DNA of 64,000 nt, from positions 310,001 to 374,000 of the forward strand of contig MFNF01000001.1 of assembly GCA_001783715.1 (NCBI GenBank). Direction: 5' to 3'. The notes beneath the pieces were generated by a model. The model did not search any database, was not told the origin of the DNA, and saw only the letters and a list, made by a program, of their open reading frames with translations. Position 1 is the stretch's first letter, and each line of letters starts with the position of its first letter. Made by a program: the position numbers and the translations under genes. Shown in pieces: positions 1,603 to 54,828 of the stretch. The stretch is from Candidatus Lambdaproteobacteria bacterium RIFOXYD2_FULL_56_26. GTDB lineage: Bacteria; SAR324; XYD2-FULL-50-16.

Positions 1603-1631
1603 CAAGGGGTGGCCCCGGCGGCCACTCCTTG
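1603..1631. terminator. Hairpin between convergent genes, possible bidirectional terminator
   Basis: A 12-bp stem (CAAGGGGTGGCC against GGCCACTCCTTG, one G-T pair) with a 5-base loop lies between the stop codons of hcp and the facing membrane-protein gene. There is no clean T-run on either side, so factor-independent termination is plausible rather than certain. Confidence 0.5.
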
Positions 1632-1636
1632 TGTAC

Positions 1637-3568
1637 CTACTGCCGGTTGACCAAAAAAAGAGTTACGTCTGGACGGGTTGAGAACAATTTGAGGCAGGAA
1701 TAGTCCGCCAAGTTGTTTGGCAAGGGGTGAATCCTGGTTTGCCAATAAACCGCTTCTACGTTGTACTCTGCCAGAAATTCACAGCTTTGGGTCGGCGCAA
1801 GGCTGCCAGAGTAAAAGGTTTCTACTTTCTCAAGTAAAGGCAGGTAGGTAGCTTCGTCTTGGTTGATCGCCCCGGTTTGGAAGTTACTTACCAGGGAATG
1901 CCGTCCGGTCAGTCCCACAAAACTCCACAGTTGTCGAATTTTGTAATAGTTACTCAGCACGTACCCGTTGCTGGAGGTTTGGTGTCTGACTTCCCTGATC
2001 GCTTCCATCTCGGTTGCCGAGTGTTCATAATGTGACTTGGGGCCCCGAAAATGCTTCCCATCCGCATAACCCCCAAAGTAAAGCAAAAACAAAATGAGCC
2101 CCCCCAACAGTCCAACTCCCCACGGCAAGGACCGCTTGTGTTGGCTCAAAACCTGGGCGAAAGCGGCAAGAGCGGCGGCTTCCAAGAGCCAGCTGCCAAA
2201 AAAAATGAAATAGACGATCGACCCTTCCGACCCTCCGGTCGGGAACTTGAACAGTCCAAACACAACCATGCTGGCCCAACCACCCAGAATTAGGTACAAA
2301 AAGCCCCGCAATTGCTTGAACGGAGACCAACACAAGGCAAATCCGGCGATCAAAAACCCGGTTAGTTCATAAACCAGGGGAACCCAGACAAAGTATCCGG
2401 GACTGCCAAACAAGCGATTGGTCCAGTCCAAGAGGTAGGCGAAGACCGTAATCCCGTATTGCTCTGAGATCCTGGAGGCATAAACAAAAGCCCAGTAGTG
2501 ATTGGGGTCAAACTGCAGGAAGGGCTGCGCAGAGGAGCTTTCACCCCGGACCAACCACAGATACCAAAAGACCGCCAGCCCAGACCCCAAGGTCCCGATA
2601 GCAACCAGGGTTTTGACCTGGATTTTTTTAAACTGATTGGGGTCCAGTACAAACAAAGGCACGGCCAACAAGAAAGGAGTCAGGGCCAGGAGTTTGATTC
2701 CCACCAAGGCGGAAAGGCACCAAGCAGCCACGGCCAAATTTCCCCATTTTTGGGGGCGGTCCAAAAAATCCAACAGAAGTTTGGCCCCGAACAGCATATG
2801 GGCCAAGGCAAAGGTGTTTTGCCGGAAGGTCAGGTGAGAGATTTTTTGGTCACCCGGAATCCCCTGTAACCCAAAAAAAATACCAAACAAAAGTAAGGTA
2901 AGCCAGGGCCGGTTGGGCTTGCTGGTTCCCACCAGCACCCAAAAACCCAACAAGATACTAAGCCAGTTAAAAAGCAGATTCCAATGAAGATAGACGCTGC
3001 GAAGTTTCAGCTGTGAGGCCTGGGACAAGGTTGCGGCCCAAAGCTCGTTGAAGTTGTAGTACTTGTAAAATTCATCGGTATAAACAAACAGGTCAACCGG
3101 AGGAAAGTGTTGCTTGATCCCCTGGGCTATGGCCATTCTTTGGTATTCGTCTTGGTAGTAGGCTCCCTGAGGCCGCAGGGTGAAGAAAACAAAGACCAGG
3201 ACCAACAGCCCCGTAGCGACCAAAAAAGGCAGCAGGTGGGGGCGCAAAACCTCCAGCCAGCGTTGCCGCCGTTGTTGCCAAACCGCTCGCTCCTGTACGT
3301 CACGCAGCCCCCAGAGGACAAACAGGAACATAACCACATAAATCAAGGTAAAGCCCCAAAAGGGGAGCCCTAAGGGAGAAATCATCACCCGGTAGAGGAT
3401 GCTGGGGACCAGTACAAGGCAAGAACTAAGGCCCAAGAAAAAGGCGGGTTGTTGCGTTCCAAACCGCAGACGAACCGCCTTGAATTGGTCCAAAAAAGCG
3501 AGGGGGACCAAATGAAAAAACCCAGCGATACAAAAAAAATAAACTAACTCAATGGCATATCCGAACAT
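1637..3568 (-). CDS. Multi-pass membrane protein, GT-C glycosyltransferase-like, paralogue of the 32-34 kb protein
   Basis: About 643 residues with many hydrophobic helices and one hydrophilic loop near residues 125-160. That loop carries QDEYQR followed by a conserved PP-x4-VY-x5-YYNF pattern. An acidic DE pair in the first external loop is typical of GT-C enzymes that use lipid-linked sugars. The protein at 32166-34157 has the same loop (QDEQQR, YYNF) and a similar C-terminal region, including FxxGGxx(S/G)S and GAINQD, so the two are paralogues. I could not assign a characterised family. Start: ATG at 3566-3568 (MFGYAIEL) is preferred over an in-frame TTG 11 codons upstream; neither has a strong ribosome site. 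It may be co-transcribed with uppP, whose undecaprenyl phosphate recycling would suit a lipid-linked glycosylation role (inference). Confidence 0.6.
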   Translation of the reverse strand: MFGYAIELVYFFCIAGFFHLVPLAFLDQFKAVRLRFGTQQPAFFLGLSSCLVLVPSILYRVMISPLGLPFWGFTLIYVVMFLFVLWGLRDVQERAVWQQRRQRWLEVLRPHLLPFLVATGLLVLVFVFFTLRPQGAYYQDEYQRMAIAQGIKQHFPPVDLFVYTDEFYKYYNFNELWAATLSQASQLKLRSVYLHWNLLFNWLSILLGFWVLVGTSKPNRPWLTLLLFGIFFGLQGIPGDQKISHLTFRQNTFALAHMLFGAKLLLDFLDRPQKWGNLAVAAWCLSALVGIKLLALTPFLLAVPLFVLDPNQFKKIQVKTLVAIGTLGSGLAVFWYLWLVRGESSSAQPFLQFDPNHYWAFVYASRISEQYGITVFAYLLDWTNRLFGSPGYFVWVPLVYELTGFLIAGFALCWSPFKQLRGFLYLILGGWASMVVFGLFKFPTGGSEGSIVYFIFFGSWLLEAAALAAFAQVLSQHKRSLPWGVGLLGGLILFLLYFGGYADGKHFRGPKSHYEHSATEMEAIREVRHQTSSNGYVLSNYYKIRQLWSFVGLTGRHSLVSNFQTGAINQDEATYLPLLEKVETFYSGSLAPTQSCEFLAEYNVEAVYWQTRIHPLPNNLADYSCLKLFSTRPDVTLFLVNRQ

Positions 3569-3698
3569 TGTGCAACTCGGTGTTTGGGTTGAAAAGATCA
3601 AAAAGGGAAATTTTCCTGAGAATTCTCAGCCGGTATCTGCCGGAACCCTAGCACATAACCAACGAATTCATTGCAACATACTGAATATGCGGAATATT

Positions 3699-4517
3699 TC
3701 AAACCAAAAAATAAACAACCGCCCCAAGGACGATACGGTAAATCCCAAAGGGAATCAAGCCTATTTTCCCCAGCACTCCGATGAACCAACGGATCGAGAC
3801 CCAAGCAATGGCAAAGGCCACCACAAACCCCAGCCCAAAGACCGCTAGGTCCGACTGGTCCAAAAATCCCCAGGATTTGTAGAGATCATAACCCACCGCT
3901 GCCACCATGACCGGAACAGCGATGATAAAGGAAAAGTCCGCCGCCGCTTGGGCACGGACTCCCACCAAGAGCCCGGTGATCAAGGTGGAGCCGGACCGGG
4001 ACATGCCCGGCCAGATGGCCATACATTGCCCCAGGCCGATCAACCCGGCCTGTTTGAGGCTGATTTGGTCCACCTCTTCGGCACTGTAACGTTTGGGCAT
4101 CAGCTGTACCAGAATCATCATCACCCCGCCGACCATCAGCCCGACCGCCACCACCGAGACGGAAAAAAGCTGTTCCTTGATCACCTTGTGCAGCAGCAAC
4201 CCGGCCACCAGGATCGGCAACACCGCCACCACAAAATGAACCGCCGTGGGCCGACTGTTCCCCCACAAAAGCCGCTTCCAAAAGGGTTCTTCCCCAGGCC
4301 CAGGGATCAGGCCCAAGAACCGCTCCTTGTACAGCCAAAAGGCGGCCAGGATCGCCCCCAGTTGGATGAACACCGCAAAGGTGGCGGCCTTTTCGCCGGT
4401 AAACTCTATCCAGTCTTCCAGCAGAATCATGTGCCCGGTGGAAGAAACCGGCACGAACTCGGTCAAGCCTTCCACCACTGCGGTCAAAAAGGCTTTGAAG
4501 TAAAGGTTTTCCAACAA
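3699..4517 (-). CDS. uppP: Undecaprenyl-diphosphatase UppP/BacA
   Basis: Integral membrane phosphatase that recycles undecaprenyl pyrophosphate to the monophosphate carrier used for peptidoglycan and polysaccharide synthesis; it also confers bacitracin tolerance. The protein has both family signatures: EGLTEFVPVSSTGH near the N-terminus and GMSRSGST in the second half. About 272 residues, normal for the family. I chose the TTG at 4515-4517 because AAAGGA lies six bases before it and the product begins with the usual short N-terminus. An upstream in-frame TTG at 4547 would add ten residues without such a site. It follows the diguanylate cyclase by 37 bases on the same strand, so an operon is likely. 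Confidence 0.93.
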   Translation of the reverse strand: MLENLYFKAFLTAVVEGLTEFVPVSSTGHMILLEDWIEFTGEKAATFAVFIQLGAILAAFWLYKERFLGLIPGPGEEPFWKRLLWGNSRPTAVHFVVAVLPILVAGLLLHKVIKEQLFSVSVVAVGLMVGGVMMILVQLMPKRYSAEEVDQISLKQAGLIGLGQCMAIWPGMSRSGSTLITGLLVGVRAQAAADFSFIIAVPVMVAAVGYDLYKSWGFLDQSDLAVFGLGFVVAFAIAWVSIRWFIGVLGKIGLIPFGIYRIVLGAVVYFLV

Positions 4518-4554
4518 GTCTATTCCTTTGGGTTCTAAGGGGGGCAATCGGGGC

Positions 4555-6489
4555 TTATTCCTTGTCCATCTGCTCGATCAACTGGGGGGTAAACTTGACC
4601 ACTTTGTTGCGGCCACTCTTTTTAGCCGAGTACATGGCGATGTCCGCATGTTTGATGCAGATCCAAAAGTGGTCCGCTGTCTCGGGGTATTCGGTGTAGC
4701 CGATGCTGGCGGTTTTTTTGATCACCAGATTCCCGTAGGGGAAGTTGGCTTCTTCGATGTTGGCACGGATCTTTTCGGCCAGCTTTTTGGTCTCCCCAGA
4801 CCGGGTGTGGAAGGAGAGGATCAGGATCTCCTCGCCGCCGAAGCGGATCACCATGTCTTTGGATCCGACGCTTTTTTTCACCACCTGGGCAATACCCCGC
4901 AGGATCAGGTCTCCGGCATCGTGGCCCTGCTCGTCGTTGACCCGTTTGAAGTGGTCGATGTCCAGCATCATAAAGCCCAAACGGCGGTCCTTGTACTTCT
5001 CGATGAAGTCGGCGGCGATTTCCTCCAAATACCTGCGGTTGTACAAGGTGGTTAATTCGTCCTTGAGGGACTGTTCCTTGATGAAGTCCATGGCGCTCTT
5101 GATCTCTAGGACCGGAGAGGCTTGCTCCATGTAGCTTTTTAGGTAGGGGACGATCCCATCCACCCGTTCGTTTTGGTCCTTGGGGCAGATCAGCTGGATG
5201 ATCGAAACCATTTCCGCCCCAAACCGGGGGATGCACTTGTGCACCGGAGCCGAGGCCCTTTCTTCTTCGGGGAAGTACTTGCAGTACCGTTCTACGCTGA
5301 AGGAATCGTACCTACTCTTGAACTTGACCACCGGGCAAAGCTCGGGGTTGTGTTCGAGCAGGGCGGCGCAGTCGTGGACCGGGTTGAGGTCGCCCAACTC
5401 CGGGTCCAGGTCTCCCTGGTAGCGGGTCGGGTCGTCGGCGATGGTTTCTTCCCGGACGCATTGGTCGAGCACAAAGTGGAATTCCTTTTTCCTGAAGTTG
5501 GCCTCATAGATGCCAAACCGCTTGACTCCCATTCGTTTGAGGACGTCTTGGAAACGGACGTAAACCCCGAACTTGGTCTCTTCCCGTTCGGCGTTTTTCT
5601 TGAAGTTGTAGATTTGTAGCAGCTGGTCCACATTGTGGACCGTGTCGGTGATCACATTCCCTGACCGCTGGAAGTCAAAGCCCACCAGGGAATAAACCTT
5701 TTGGCAAATCTCGGTGAAGGTGCCGTTGAGGGTGCGCATCATCCGGTTGAAACTTTTGGCCACATCCCCCGCTTCATCGTCGAGAGTCTCGCCAACCCTG
5801 ACATGCATATGGCCCATTTCCAGTTCCCCAAAGCCGGTTTGCAGTTCCGAAAAAAAGGCGGAATAGGGGGTAAAAAACCGGTAAATCATCCAGAAGATGA
5901 AGAGGATACTGGAAAAGGTCAGGACGGAAATGGCAAAGATGGTCCAAAGCCCTACGTTACGTTGGGCGGAAAGGTCAAAGCTGATGCTGATCGCCCCGAG
6001 CACCTGCCCCTCTTCTGCGTGGTGGCAGTTCAGGCAATTGATCCGGCCTTTGGCGGAGGCCTTGTAAGGGATGACCAAGTTATAGACCGGACTGGAAAAC
6101 CCCTCAAGCAGCTCCTCTTGCATCTCCCCGGTTTCCAGGACCTTAAACTCCATCGCCGTTTCGGCGGCCTCTGCCTTGTGGGGAGCGCCGAATTGGGCGA
6201 TGACCCGGCTGCCTCGGATCACCTTGAGTTTTTTGATGGCGCTCAAGGTGTCGGTGTCCATCATCCCGGCCAAAAAGATGTCCCGCTGGCTGATTACGCC
6301 CAGGTACATCAGGCTGGTGATCCCGTCTCGGATGGTCTTGGCCACCGAAAGGGCGTTTTCCTTGGCCGCAGAGAGGGTAAGGTACCGAAAGCTCATCGAC
6401 AGGGTGCCGAAGATGAGCATAAAGAGCACAAGGAAGGTGATGGAGAACCGAAAGACGAGCTTAAATTGGATCTTCCTGCTTTGGCCCAT
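4555..6489 (-). CDS. Membrane diguanylate cyclase with heme-c-motif sensor domain
   Basis: Predicted to make cyclic di-GMP from two GTP. Order: N-terminal membrane helix (residues ~10-35), periplasmic sensor of the DUF3365/Tll0287-like kind containing CLNCH at ~149-153, second membrane helix (~175-200), HAMP-like linker, a middle region rich in Cys and His (~330-450), and a C-terminal GGDEF domain with GGEEI at ~548. CXXCH in an exported domain suggests covalent heme c and hence redox, NO or O2 sensing. The residues before GGEEI are GSKD, not RxxD, so the product-inhibition I-site appears lost. The ATG at 6489 begins MGQSRKI just before the first helix; 69 upstream codons in the same frame look non-coding. 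Divergent from fliN, so a motility link is plausible. Confidence 0.88.
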   Translation of the reverse strand: MGQSRKIQFKLVFRFSITFLVLFMLIFGTLSMSFRYLTLSAAKENALSVAKTIRDGITSLMYLGVISQRDIFLAGMMDTDTLSAIKKLKVIRGSRVIAQFGAPHKAEAAETAMEFKVLETGEMQEELLEGFSSPVYNLVIPYKASAKGRINCLNCHHAEEGQVLGAISISFDLSAQRNVGLWTIFAISVLTFSSILFIFWMIYRFFTPYSAFFSELQTGFGELEMGHMHVRVGETLDDEAGDVAKSFNRMMRTLNGTFTEICQKVYSLVGFDFQRSGNVITDTVHNVDQLLQIYNFKKNAEREETKFGVYVRFQDVLKRMGVKRFGIYEANFRKKEFHFVLDQCVREETIADDPTRYQGDLDPELGDLNPVHDCAALLEHNPELCPVVKFKSRYDSFSVERYCKYFPEEERASAPVHKCIPRFGAEMVSIIQLICPKDQNERVDGIVPYLKSYMEQASPVLEIKSAMDFIKEQSLKDELTTLYNRRYLEEIAADFIEKYKDRRLGFMMLDIDHFKRVNDEQGHDAGDLILRGIAQVVKKSVGSKDMVIRFGGEEILILSFHTRSGETKKLAEKIRANIEEANFPYGNLVIKKTASIGYTEYPETADHFWICIKHADIAMYSAKKSGRNKVVKFTPQLIEQMDKE

Positions 6490-8958: not shown

Positions 8959-9753
8959 ATGGGCAGTCGGATCAAACAGTATTTGAGCATTTATGGCAGC
9001 TTTTTTTCCACCAGCTTCTCGGCGGCCATGAGCTTCCGGGGGCACTTTGTGCTCCTGATCCTGATGGACCTGGTGTTTTATTACACCCATCTGGTCAGTA
9101 TCGACATCCTTTATGACCACATCCAAACCATCGGGATTTGGGACCGGCAGCAACTGCTCTTTTTTGCCTCGGTGATGTTGGCGATCAACCAGATCTCCAT
9201 GACCTTGGTCAGCGAAAACTACTGGATATTTCCCCTGTCCATCCGTACCGGGGAACTGGATTTTTCCTTGATCAAGCCGGTAAACGCCGTGTTCTTAAGC
9301 TTTTTTCGGATCATCCGGCCCGGCAGCTTGATCAACGTCTGTTTCACCGGCCCGGCGGTGGTTTATTTTGGCCTCCAGGTTGGCTTGAGTCCCTTGGCCT
9401 GGGTCTGTTTGCCCTTTGCCGTGGTGGGCGGTTTTTTGCTGCAAAATGCCATAGAGATGTTTTTGAGTTGCGCCATGTTTTGGATGATGGATGGGACGGG
9501 GATCAACTTCATCCGGGTCGAACTGCAACAGCTTGCCCGGTGGCCCGACTTTGTTTACCCTCGCCTGCTCCGCAGCAGCCTGACCTTGGTTTTACCGGTT
9601 CTGTTGATCGGCAGCGGTCCGGTGCGGTTTCTCCTGGACCCTACCGACGGCTGGCCCCTGGTTTGGCTGGTGGGGTTTTTGGGACTGTTTTGGCTGCTCT
9701 TGGGGTTCTTCTGGCGGTTGGGCCTCAAGGCCTACGAATCCGCCTCATCTTGA
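8959..9753 (+). CDS. ABC-2 exporter permease, second subunit (COG3694-like)
   Basis: Second membrane subunit, 264 residues with about six helices. The segment VSENYWIFPLSIRTGELDF parallels the IRxGxIxxxLIxPxN motif between helices 2 and 3 of such permeases, confirming homology with the preceding gene. The ATG at 8959 lies two bases after the preceding stop codon and has GTAGGG just upstream. A much longer frame opening at 8170 in this phase is a shadow of the first permease gene. The end of this gene is followed by a promoter for the next one. Confidence 0.87.
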   Translation: MGSRIKQYLSIYGSFFSTSFSAAMSFRGHFVLLILMDLVFYYTHLVSIDILYDHIQTIGIWDRQQLLFFASVMLAINQISMTLVSENYWIFPLSIRTGELDFSLIKPVNAVFLSFFRIIRPGSLINVCFTGPAVVYFGLQVGLSPLAWVCLPFAVVGGFLLQNAIEMFLSCAMFWMMDGTGINFIRVELQQLARWPDFVYPRLLRSSLTLVLPVLLIGSGPVRFLLDPTDGWPLVWLVGFLGLFWLLLGFFWRLGLKAYESASS

Positions 9754-50420: not shown

Positions 50421-50612
50421 AGCCACCGTTTGAGTAGGGTTATAGGTCGGGTTAATGAATCATGCTAGCTTGACCATGCAAATTTGCAAAGCCTTTTGTC
50501 CTTCCAGTAAACTTGGTTACGGTCAGGGACCACTATTGAAAACCGCAGGATTGGTAGCCAACGCTTCCAGGCAAATAGAAAAATGGCATGATTGTCGATT
50601 ACGTCACTAATT

Positions 50613-51659
50613 TCACTCAACCACTTTTGGCAAAAAGTTTTTTAGTCCTGTGTTCTCAACCAATTGATGCAAGGTCGAAAGTGTGAAGACTTTTCCGTGG
50701 GTAGCTAAGAGCATATCCTTCATGTCTTGTCTGCGGATTCCAAAGCCTCTTCCATCAATACAAGCAACCACTTCAAATGAGGGTTTTCCGGCCCTTGTCC
50801 GATCATCCCGCATGGAAGCAAGTCGCAAAATTCTAGAAACCTTGTCCCTTGCTGTTCCATCATCCCCGGTGATCTTAGCTTCAATGATCACCGATGCAGC
50901 AAATTCAGTAGGTACAAAGAAGTCAGGTGCCTGCTCAAATCCTTCGATTCTTTCAGCCCTTCTGGTCTTACGAAAGGTAATCATCCGCTTGGAGAGTTGT
51001 TCTTCAATAGCACTTTCCATGACATCGCCCACCTGTTCTGACGCAGAGTCTCGGTGGCTAGCAAAAGGACGGCCTAGATATCGTTCGTACAGCAGCACCG
51101 CATAGGGAATGTGCAAATTGGCTGCATTTTGAACTGAAGTCAGCCCGCTTGACGTATCCACTTTGGCCAAACGATGTAAGGTATCCTTTGATATCGGTGG
51201 GGCACCTTTTGCAATCAATTCAACAGCAATAGAAATTAGCGACTTGATCCGCACGTTGGTAACCTGAGCCCCCGCTTTTGGAGAAGAAAAAAAGTTCCGA
51301 TGCTTCCTGACCTTTGTGTCCAAAGTGCGAATTGCCCCTTGGGTAATATCACTGTTTCGCTCTGACCTTGCTAAATCAGCCCACTCAGGCGGTGAAAACC
51401 CCAAGATAGTTCGCAAAACGACCAGAACCAGAGCATCTTCTTTCAAAGCTTCCCAGACAGATTCCTCATCGAACCGGACAAAAGCCTGGGAATGACGCTT
51501 TAATACCTCGTATGCCGACTGAAAATCACCATATTCGACAAAGCCGGGCCCCCTGGGAAGATAAAGAAACTGGGATTGAATATCCTGAAAAGTAACGTCA
51601 ACCATGGCATCTAATTGTCGATTTAAACTTGAGAAATCAAGTTGAAAAGGGCGCACCAT
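50613..51659 (-). CDS. Putative PD-(D/E)XK restriction-type endonuclease
   Basis: 348 residues. The C-terminal third has a PD-(D/E)XK site: D246 in APDFFVP, E260 and K262 in VIIEAKI, with a preceding conserved-type acidic helix (GDVMESAIEEQL) and a downstream DKVSRI helix. The N-terminal ~200 residues are mostly helical, with no family I recognise, and could read DNA or modification. Located two bases after the methyltransferase on the same strand; GGAG eight bases before the ATG. This pairing and the lower GC suggest a restriction-modification gene acquired by transfer. Cleavage specificity is unknown. Confidence 0.72.
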   Translation of the reverse strand: MVRPFQLDFSSLNRQLDAMVDVTFQDIQSQFLYLPRGPGFVEYGDFQSAYEVLKRHSQAFVRFDEESVWEALKEDALVLVVLRTILGFSPPEWADLARSERNSDITQGAIRTLDTKVRKHRNFFSSPKAGAQVTNVRIKSLISIAVELIAKGAPPISKDTLHRLAKVDTSSGLTSVQNAANLHIPYAVLLYERYLGRPFASHRDSASEQVGDVMESAIEEQLSKRMITFRKTRRAERIEGFEQAPDFFVPTEFAASVIIEAKITGDDGTARDKVSRILRLASMRDDRTRAGKPSFEVVACIDGRGFGIRRQDMKDMLLATHGKVFTLSTLHQLVENTGLKNFLPKVVE

Positions 51660-51661
51660 TC

Positions 51662-53893
51662 TTATTTCTCCACCAAACTTGGTTCATTTCTTTTTGATAC
51701 GGCCAGGAAATCACTCACTTCAGTGACTGCGAATTCAATTTCTACCTGGTCTGAAATTTTTTTAATACACTCTGTTGCCATATCCATCTTAACTTTCAGC
51801 GGCAAAAAGCGATCCCACTTTGACTGCAATATCCGGGTTGCCAGTCTAGCGACGTGGCCCGCCATCAAACAACGAAGATCGCCTTTGGATACCCTAACAC
51901 CAGCCTGTTGCATCATTAACCCATCATCTTTTAAAATCTTAAAACACTCAACTTGGGGCTGCACTGTGAGCAGTTCCAATTGTTCATTTTTTTGCTGATT
52001 TCGGGTCATTTTTCGGCAAACGAAGACGGAGTCCAGGATGGAAGACCCAGTTTTGGCGATGTGCAATGAGGCACTCATTTCCCCAGCAGCAGGCAAAGTC
52101 GCCGTGCAAATCAGTTGAGCATCCAAAATAGCTACCACCAAGGGTAAATAGGCTGTTGGATCATTGTGATGATACGTAAAAACGAAGGGACCACCCACCT
52201 TAAGTGCTTGGGCAAAGTGGGTAAAAACCTCAGAAAGTCCATTGGTAAAGTGCTCAAGTCCTCGTTTTTCTGTCTCATTGCCAGTTAATTCCTCAGCTGA
52301 CCTAGTGCTTGGGGCCCTAAAACCTGGAAATTTTTCACCTAAAACTTGGCGCAACCAAACAAAACAAAAATCTATTAATTCAGCATATTGAACATTATCA
52401 TAGTAAGGTGGATCGGTAAAAACTCCATCCAGTGAGTCTTTAGTTAAAGGAACTGCCTGGGAGGGTTGGTTGATCAAAAACGCTTGTTTTGTCTTAAAAC
52501 CAGATGGTTGCCCAGAAACTAAAGTTGCTTTGATCGTTTCTCCGGGTATTGGGACAGTTTCCTTTTTTCCCCCCTTTTGCCTAGTTTCAAAAGGAGCGAG
52601 GCAATATTGTTTTGCCCGGATGTACTTCTCAACAAAGTGCACAAAAGCCCCAGACCCGACTTTTTCGATTCCTAGCAGATTGTTTTCGCATTGAATTAAA
52701 CCAACAGGAAACCCATGAATACTAAATATATCCTGGCATTTAAGCGCATAGGTATCATACCGACAAAGCATATTTTGGTACCTTAGGGTATCTGAAAACA
52801 CCGTTAGTAACGCTTCACGCACGGGGATATCACTTATCGCAACAATCCCTTTCAGTAAGAAACCTAAACCTAACAATTGTCTTTCATTAAAAAGTTCCCT
52901 GTACTTTGAATACCCCCAGCGGTGCAAACGATCACTTTCGTCTCCGGCAGGAATTGGGTCTTCAGGAATCGGTAGAGAATCAGAAAGAGAAGCAAGTTTT
53001 TTTTTTGCCAAGTGAAATTTTTTAAGGTCATTTGCATCTGGAGCTTTGAACTGTCTCCCTGCTTTGGTGTGATAGCAAGCTTCACAATGGTACTCAATCG
53101 CCCACATTCTATGAGCCGGAGGTTTTTTAAACTGACTGATCGAAAAGCCGTGACCGCAATGGCAGCAATCTAACTTTTTCTTTGAAACATTTCCTTCAAT
53201 ATGAACAGGTTGTTCGCAAGACTTGCAAATTGCAGGACTCTTACGAGTGGGCAGTTCTGAAAATTCATTCAGGGTGCCACATCCAGAGCAAAGTAAAAGA
53301 TTCTTCGGATGTCGAACCGCTTCGGCTAAAAGGTACCCAGGAAATAGATCATTGATACCATGGCATTTAGGGCATGGTGCCGTTTTCACCCACATGAAAT
53401 ATTTTACTTCTGCTTCTTTGCCACAATCAAGGCAGGTAGTTTGATACAAACGATCAACTTTCTGCTGTACACTTTGGACAAGGCGCTCTGCTTCTTTTCT
53501 AAAGGTATTGATCTCCAATTCGGAAAGGGACTGACGTACAATCCAATGTGCCATTGGATTGATATCACAACCGACAACGTGAAATCCAAGTCGATTGGCC
53601 TCAAATACTGGGGTTCCACCTCCCATAAAGGGGTCACCAATAACTCCCCGAAATTTTTGCGCAATCCAAAAATTGTCTTTTAGAGTTCCAGACTCACAAA
53701 ATTCTGCAAGCATGAGACTGCGAAAAAGAGTTCCTGGACGGCGAGCGAACCATTTGTGAATACCAATAATTGGCCGGTAGTTTTGCTGAATTTGTTTTTC
53801 TTTGAGTGCCAATCCAGTAGAAAAGGCTGCATCAAATCCAGACTCCAGACCTCGCAATTGAAGCTTTCTTGCTGCTGAAGAGTTTTTTCCCAC
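51662..53893 (-). CDS. Zinc-ribbon DNA methyltransferase (COG1743/DUF1156-like, adenine or cytosine N-methylase)
   Basis: About 743 residues. Motif I GDPFMGGGTPVFEANRLG near residue 86, followed by VVGCDINPMA; motif IV TDPPYYDNVQYAEL near residue 490. NPPY/DPPY-type motif IV marks amino-group (N6A or N4C) methylation. Between them is an insert of ~110 residues with six CXXC knuckles (CLDC, CPKC, CSGC, CKSC, CCHC, CEAC), enough for three zinc ribbons. N-terminal HKWFARRPGTLFRSLML resembles the WWARRP element of COG1743 enzymes. I chose GTG at 53893 because AGGA lies six bases upstream; an in-frame TTG at 53968 would add 25 residues without a ribosome site. The region is AT-richer than its flanks. 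Confidence 0.82.
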   Translation of the reverse strand: MGKNSSAARKLQLRGLESGFDAAFSTGLALKEKQIQQNYRPIIGIHKWFARRPGTLFRSLMLAEFCESGTLKDNFWIAQKFRGVIGDPFMGGGTPVFEANRLGFHVVGCDINPMAHWIVRQSLSELEINTFRKEAERLVQSVQQKVDRLYQTTCLDCGKEAEVKYFMWVKTAPCPKCHGINDLFPGYLLAEAVRHPKNLLLCSGCGTLNEFSELPTRKSPAICKSCEQPVHIEGNVSKKKLDCCHCGHGFSISQFKKPPAHRMWAIEYHCEACYHTKAGRQFKAPDANDLKKFHLAKKKLASLSDSLPIPEDPIPAGDESDRLHRWGYSKYRELFNERQLLGLGFLLKGIVAISDIPVREALLTVFSDTLRYQNMLCRYDTYALKCQDIFSIHGFPVGLIQCENNLLGIEKVGSGAFVHFVEKYIRAKQYCLAPFETRQKGGKKETVPIPGETIKATLVSGQPSGFKTKQAFLINQPSQAVPLTKDSLDGVFTDPPYYDNVQYAELIDFCFVWLRQVLGEKFPGFRAPSTRSAEELTGNETEKRGLEHFTNGLSEVFTHFAQALKVGGPFVFTYHHNDPTAYLPLVVAILDAQLICTATLPAAGEMSASLHIAKTGSSILDSVFVCRKMTRNQQKNEQLELLTVQPQVECFKILKDDGLMMQQAGVRVSKGDLRCLMAGHVARLATRILQSKWDRFLPLKVKMDMATECIKKISDQVEIEFAVTEVSDFLAVSKRNEPSLVEK

Positions 53894-54006
53894 TCTGGTT
53901 CCTGATTTTAGGATTTCTAAATTTGTGCTTTGGACTTTTTGCTTTCCTTCACCCTTCCAGGTTGGCAAGAAAGGTTACAACTGGCATGGGTTCCCAAACC
54001 CAAGCC

Positions 54007-54828
54007 CTACCCTTCCAAAAGCCTCCGGTCGGGGCCGTCGATCATCATGAAATTACACATCCCCCGCAACCGGGAGTAAATCCTCGGCCCCACCCGCTCG
54101 GCCAGGGTCTTGGGCTCCGGGTCACCGGGGCCGGTGGCCTTGTGTTCCTTGTAGGTGGTGGACTTTTGTTCGGTGTAATTGGTGGTAAAAAGGGTGGTTT
54201 TTTTCTGGGCGTACCTTGCCGAAATCAGGTTGTCCAAGATCCCCAATTCCCAATCGCTGCCCCGGCCCTTGCCCAGTTCGTCGATCACCAAAACCTCAAT
54301 CTGGCTGATCTGGGAAAGCAGGTTGGATTCGCTCAAACCCTGGTCATACTGGGACTTGATCGCCGAAAGCAGGGAGGTGAACTCCTGGAACAGGCAGGGG
54401 ACTTGGTGGTTCAAGGTGAAGTCCTGGATCAGGCTACAGACCAGTCTTGTCTTGCCGACCCCGACCCCACCCATCAGAAGCAGGCCTTTCCAGTCGCCCT
54501 TTTCAAAGTTCCGGTACAAGAATTTGGCGGTTCGTAAAGCCTCGGCCAAACTTTTGTGGGCTTTGGTGTCATAGTTGCCGAAGTGGGCATCAAAAAATTG
54601 GGCCGGCATCTTGGCCCCGTTGTACAGGGCGATTTTCCGGTCCACCTCCCGACAATCACAAGGCTCGGCCCGTTCCCGGCCCTTTTCGTCTTGGCTCAAG
54701 ATGTAGCCCAGGTTCGAGCATTTTTTGCATTCCAAAAAGCAGTCCGGGCAACGTTGGGCCACCGCCACCATGCCCTTGGGTAAAAGTTGGTATCGGTGGT
54801 CCGAACAGGTTTTGCAGGTTTTTACCAC
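54007..54828 (-). CDS. DnaC/IstB-like AAA+ ATPase with N-terminal zinc-binding cysteines
   Basis: 273 residues. N-terminal ~60 residues contain four cysteine pairs (CKTC, CPDC-x3-CKKC, CDC), then an AAA+ ATPase: LLMGGVGVGKTRL (Walker A, ~115), IEVLVIDELGKG (Walker B), LFTTNY (sensor 1), and RIYSRLRGMC (arginine-finger region). This matches the DnaC/DnaI helicase-loader family. The frame opens with GTG at 54828 directly after an in-frame stop, so no longer form exists. No dnaB or transposase adjacent. Possibly the chromosomal helicase loader, otherwise a mobile-element relic; immediately upstream of the methyltransferase island. Confidence 0.82.
   Translation of the reverse strand: MVKTCKTCSDHRYQLLPKGMVAVAQRCPDCFLECKKCSNLGYILSQDEKGRERAEPCDCREVDRKIALYNGAKMPAQFFDAHFGNYDTKAHKSLAEALRTAKFLYRNFEKGDWKGLLLMGGVGVGKTRLVCSLIQDFTLNHQVPCLFQEFTSLLSAIKSQYDQGLSESNLLSQISQIEVLVIDELGKGRGSDWELGILDNLISARYAQKKTTLFTTNYTEQKSTTYKEHKATGPGDPEPKTLAERVGPRIYSRLRGMCNFMMIDGPDRRLLEG

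Follow-up and report, generated by a model that had tools for sequence, protein, structure and literature searches.

DNA methyltransferases of the COG1743/DUF1156 type have been described as members of larger gene sets, namely the COG1743-DUF499-SWI2/SNF2 operon (PMC7641849) and the BREX type 3 and BREX-related systems (PMC12839542). The methyltransferase that is analyzed here shares with these enzymes the catalytic core, a DUF1156-like N-terminal region (a sub-threshold match in this case) and an insert between motifs I and IV. It differs from them in the company that it keeps: whereas those systems are assemblies of several genes that include ATPases and helicases (PMC12839542, PMC7641849), its sole partner is one nuclease. 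The open-licence papers that were searched yielded no description of a strict two-gene form.

Type II restriction-modification systems in general provide a second parallel. The likeness lies in the separate, adjacent genes for a methyltransferase and a PD-(D/E)XK nuclease with no helicase or ATPase subunit, in the patchy, mobile distribution and decayed copies, and in the occurrence of an apparently orphan phage methylase. The differences are that the nuclease family has no Pfam, NCBIfam or PADLOC model, and that the methyltransferase is of the large zinc-ribbon COG1743 type.

A foreign gene pair between trxA and a dnaC-like gene

The pair is located in a 64,000-nucleotide stretch of the genome of Candidatus Lambdaproteobacteria bacterium RIFOXYD2_FULL_56_26 (the window). 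Its principal parts are as follows.

50427..54006, no strand: insertion that separates trxA from the dnaC-like gene, by comparison with the genome G051 (locus L108)
50613..51659, minus strand: nuclease gene (348 amino acids, ATG start), a predicted type II restriction endonuclease
51662..53968, minus strand: DUF1156/COG1743-type DNA methyltransferase gene (768 amino acids as the longest open reading frame; 743 amino acids from the likely GTG start at 53893)

Both open reading frames are free of disruptions, and a gap of 2 bp separates them. The first-pass annotation had described two genes two bases apart in an AT-richer island, with trxA and a gene for a DnaC-like ATPase as neighbors; each of these statements is borne out, and its hand counts of G/C (23 of 60 at 51661-51720, 44 of 60 at 54061-54120) are exact. 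The 3356 bp that span both genes have a G+C content of 43.8%, against a mean of 57.4% (SD 2.3, minimum 52.4%) for segments of equal length elsewhere in the 64 kb. GC3 is 43 for the nuclease gene and 36.5 for the methyltransferase gene, and 71-77 for neighboring genes. The IstB/DnaC-like ATPase gene on the flank belongs to the host: it is present in 10 of 10 genomes of the family, the others lacking the pair. One genome of the same family but another genus (G051) keeps the window's order of an inositol-monophosphatase-like gene, rpiB, the dnaC-like gene, trxA and truA; the spacing from the dnaC-like gene to trxA is ~170 bp there and 3.6 kb in the window. The nuclease is absent from all 51 other genomes of the phylum, and its nearest relatives found, at 67-72% identity, belong to Myxococcota/Kofleriaceae and deltaproteobacterial bins. 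Foreign composition, an empty site in a related genus, absence from 51 genomes of the phylum and nearest relatives in other lineages make horizontal acquisition of the pair, as a clean insertion, well supported. No tRNA, integrase, transposase open reading frame or convincing direct repeat or target duplication marks the ends of the insertion in the window.

The methyltransferase

53612..53635, minus strand: motif I, DPFMGGGT, residues 112-119 (SAM binding), a conserved sequence motif
53075..53434, minus strand: zinc-knuckle region with six CXXC pairs, lying between motif I and motif IV; presumed target-recognition insert
52403..52414, minus strand: motif IV, DPPY, residues 519-522 (amino-methyltransferase), a conserved sequence motif

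Motifs I and IV of a SAM-dependent amino-methyltransferase are intact and conserved, and all six of the CXXC knuckles that had been noted at first reading are present, at residues 179/182, 199/202, 227/230, 248/251, 268/271 and 295/298. Four of these pairs are kept in 76/76 paired homologues, and 60/76 keep C182 and the 295/298 knuckle. DPPY is by convention an adenine-type motif. In the light of what is established for amino-methyltransferases, this motif and the placing of the insert after motif I and before motif IV suggest that the enzyme is an N6-adenine methyltransferase and that its zinc-ribbon insert reads the site. Translation probably begins at GTG 53893 rather than at TTG 53968, since AGGA precedes the GTG and the alignments with most homologues begin only near residue 40. 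The N-terminal region is DUF1156-like (below threshold), and the protein is related to the DUF1156_antiphage, HmaB and PglXI models, in each case under NCBIfam's cutoff.

The nuclease

50841..51017, minus strand: catalytic region, fully or almost fully conserved across 77 paired homologues
51015-51017, minus strand: E215, conserved in 77/77
50922-50924, minus strand: D246, conserved in 77/77
50880-50882, minus strand: E260, conserved in 77/77
50874-50876, minus strand: K262, conserved in 76/77
50841-50864, minus strand: DDGTARDK, residues 266-273, invariant in the 77 paired homologues
51060..51659, minus strand: all-helical N-terminal region, residues 1-200, from AlphaFold models; presumed to serve DNA recognition

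The PD-(D/E)XK site, of which D246, E260 and K262 had been correctly picked out in the first-pass annotation, is intact. An AlphaFold model of the protein (mean pLDDT 89.8, pTM 0.64), for which the row from a plasmid record was left out of the alignment, retrieves a single significant match in a Foldseek search of the PDB: BstEII in complex with DNA (PDB 9ibq; E 1.4e-4, probability 1.00). This best fold match is a partial one, with modest TM scores of 0.35/0.40, an rmsd of 9.3 and 12% identity. EcoT38I, BsoBI and SgrAI, which rank next, are not significant. The ~200-residue N-terminal part, previously left unplaced, is predicted to be all-helical, and residues 1-200 searched alone with Foldseek match no solved fold and no known DNA-binding fold. 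Among viral structural models the nuclease finds generic nucleases only.

The window nuclease has no hit in NCBIfam or PADLOC and only a sub-threshold one in Pfam, and none of the PADLOC REase_II models matches it at E up to 1; weak Pfam hits recur among members of its family (TPD in 41/48, PDDEXK_11 in 15/48). Sequence searches of the PDB yield no relative and no profile-level match to BstEII, and across the Pfam, NCBIfam, PADLOC and PDB searches the nuclease matches no named restriction enzyme in sequence. Phage records match neither protein. A scan of viral contigs with the single nuclease sequence also returned nothing; the alignment-based scan did find matches.

A conserved two-gene unit

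An alignment of three nuclease sequences, scanned against ~85,000 species genomes, detected 362 relatives, of which the best 80, chosen by nuclease similarity alone, were taken for analysis. In all 80 of these genome loci, and in two viral contigs (L004 and L012), a methyltransferase gene lies directly upstream on the same strand: 82/82 for the branch of the window nuclease (clade A). The arrangement is constant, with the methyltransferase first, the nuclease second and their ends usually overlapping: the median distance is -17 bp, which places the methyltransferase stop inside the start of the nuclease gene, and 57/82 loci overlap. The two are separate open reading frames and not one polypeptide, that is, not a Type IIG fusion. 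Carriers belong to Myxococcota, Acidobacteria, Chloroflexota, Actinobacteria, deltaproteobacterial lineages, Nitrospirae, Planctomycetota, Verrucomicrobia and others; cultured strains among them are Nocardia uniformis NBRC 13702 (L029), Pilimelia terevasa JCM 3091 (L031) and Desulfacinum hydrothermale DSM 13146 (L082). Near 81 loci there is no conserved third gene (the largest shared cluster, at scattered positions, is found at 7/81), nor is an NTP-dependent translocase subunit conserved there. The two proteins have also diverged together: their pairwise distances correlate with r = 0.63, a value that none of 2000 permutations reaches (permutation maximum, 0.13).

The METHYLTRANSFERASE-side check, made on samples of three phyla (345 + 195 + 297 = 837 genomes), approaches the linkage from the other partner. 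Every one of the 15 genomes with a methyltransferase of the close subfamily (49-64% identity) has the nuclease adjacent; in one of them (G143), where the methyltransferase is full-length, the contig ends within the adjacent nuclease. Next to the distant COG1743/DUF1156 loci (28-35% identity) in the same 837 genomes the nuclease was found in 0/21 cases. The distribution is patchy, with 2 to 10 carriers among the 195-345 genomes per phylum; these counts (10, 3 and 2) include the known carriers that led to the choice of phyla, so that prevalence is slightly overstated. The suggestion that methylase and nuclease form a compact restriction or defense module is thus supported by co-occurrence, in 80/80 genome loci and 15/15 sampled genomes, and in place of homologues that never co-occur the neighborhood survey finds co-occurrence that is essentially complete. 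The companion statement that COG1743-like methylases usually inhabit larger loci is right for those already described (PMC7641849, PMC12839542) but does not hold for this subfamily.

At one locus in a genome that shares its phylum with a Myxococcota carrier (L117; G412:C213:10500-17000) the pair is adjacent but convergent, at 1626-2828(+) and 2835-5342(-). The methyltransferase there has an N-terminal extension that by eye resembles a MerR-like helix-turn-helix, and the nuclease is divergent, with its motifs kept; the locus is possibly a self-regulated variant.

Distant branches and changed partners

A second nuclease branch (clade B), 23-28% identical, is represented on a Microbacterium plasmid (L002), in viral contigs L013-L015 and in genomes L097-L099 and L118. 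Its members adjoin small PF01555-type methyltransferases with a TSPPY motif. An XRE-like helix-turn-helix suggested by eye in the clade B N-terminal region is supported by neither Pfam nor Foldseek. On the Microbacterium plasmid, a protein with the annotation "Shedu immune nuclease family protein" is encoded near the pair (9274-9669). Members of a third, very distant branch (L102-L105) have one or two neighboring methyltransferases, of the TSPPY and ADPPF types; both types are seen in L102 and L104. These sets of methyltransferases suggest an asymmetric recognition site. In their catalytic part the L102-L105 nucleases match DpnII (PF04556) above the Pfam cutoff and BanI (PF24447) below it; the window nuclease, in contrast, matches neither at E up to 1.

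The association of one catalytic part with unrelated methylase partners is what would be expected of a restriction endonuclease superfamily, and the TSPPY or double methyltransferases beside distant nucleases fit a restriction nuclease that needs a cognate methylase. The chances are about even that the window nuclease founds a family of type II endonucleases that is both widespread and unrecognized and that uses a novel helical domain for recognition, with branches that have exchanged partners among COG1743 N6-adenine enzymes of the zinc-ribbon type, small TSPPY (m4C-like) methylases and pairs of methylases for asymmetric sites. New means here absent from the Pfam, NCBIfam and PADLOC models; REBASE may list the family as a putative type II system. 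It is a new restriction-modification family and not a new kind of defense system.

Function of the pair

The pair is very probably a horizontally acquired type II restriction-modification system, composed of a predicted N6-adenine methyltransferase and a site-specific endonuclease. The methyltransferase would read a short site with its zinc-ribbon insert and methylate an exocyclic amino group in it, probably adenine N6. The helical N-terminal region of the nuclease would find the same site, to be cut, when unmethylated, by the D246/E260/K262 center with the assistance of E215. Host DNA would be protected and incoming phage or plasmid DNA cut; to judge from family, mobility and viral occurrence, the pair probably protects the cell from foreign DNA.

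Strict pairing and correlated divergence would also be expected of one enzyme split in two, type IIG- or IIB-like, with a nuclease that contributes no specificity and cuts as a subunit only, the site being located by the zinc-ribbon insert of the methyltransferase to which it is bound; that the N-terminal region of the nuclease has no known DNA-binding fold is likewise in its favor. This reading is unlikely: distant nuclease relatives stand beside entirely different methyltransferases, the convergent arrangement of L117 exists, and the nuclease has the length of stand-alone type II enzymes. The unassigned N-terminal region could instead read modified bases, making the nuclease one that cuts modified DNA, with either the methyltransferase marking foreign DNA or the marks of a phage being read. 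A strictly linked methylase that made the substrate for cleavage would kill its host, however, and a phage methyltransferase without nuclease in the stretch examined (L003) fits protection rather than targeting, so that such a mechanism is very unlikely.

That the methyltransferase is related, though under the NCBIfam cutoff, to the DUF1156_antiphage, HmaB and PglXI models gives some color to descent from a larger COG1743 defense system (BREX-related or of the DUF499-helicase type), of which the pair would be a remnant or side branch with the other parts lost. The two-gene form that is found intact, and without a third gene, in 80 genomes from many phyla, the undisrupted genes of the window and distant COG1743 loci that never carry the nuclease (0/21) make this extremely improbable. 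That the two genes are neighbors by chance, or form a housekeeping pair for repair that has no link with restriction, is scarcely credible in view of linkage in 82/82 loci, which already contradicts it, and of patchy distribution, foreign composition and decayed copies.

With the type II reading, a restriction-modification family that is widespread in many bacterial phyla has been invisible to the profile libraries of defense annotation; current tools would miss it, since no model exists for the nuclease. The pair, being two genes that are easily cloned, may supply new cutting specificities. Among COG1743/DUF1156 methylases, one branch has a simple nuclease as its dedicated partner, the papers found describing such methylases only from larger defense operons, and the exchange of partners within one nuclease superfamily offers a usable case for how restriction enzymes change methylase and target.

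Viral and decayed copies

Viruses provide exceptions to the pairing: the methyltransferase of viral contig L003 (5959-8163) is 60% identical, has no nuclease in the stretch examined and lies two genes before a phage integrase; it is likely an orphan protective methylase and plausibly serves phage self-protection. Extra copies of the nuclease or methyltransferase, truncated or deleted, are found in L067 (12766-13656), L101 (202-862) and L070 (10163-10810), and are signs of the decay that is typical of restriction-modification turnover. In L012 (6307-13938), a 43-kb contig of the viral collection, several large genes in a row come after the pair; by eye they include SMC-like and OLD-like ATPases, and the whole looks like a defense island.
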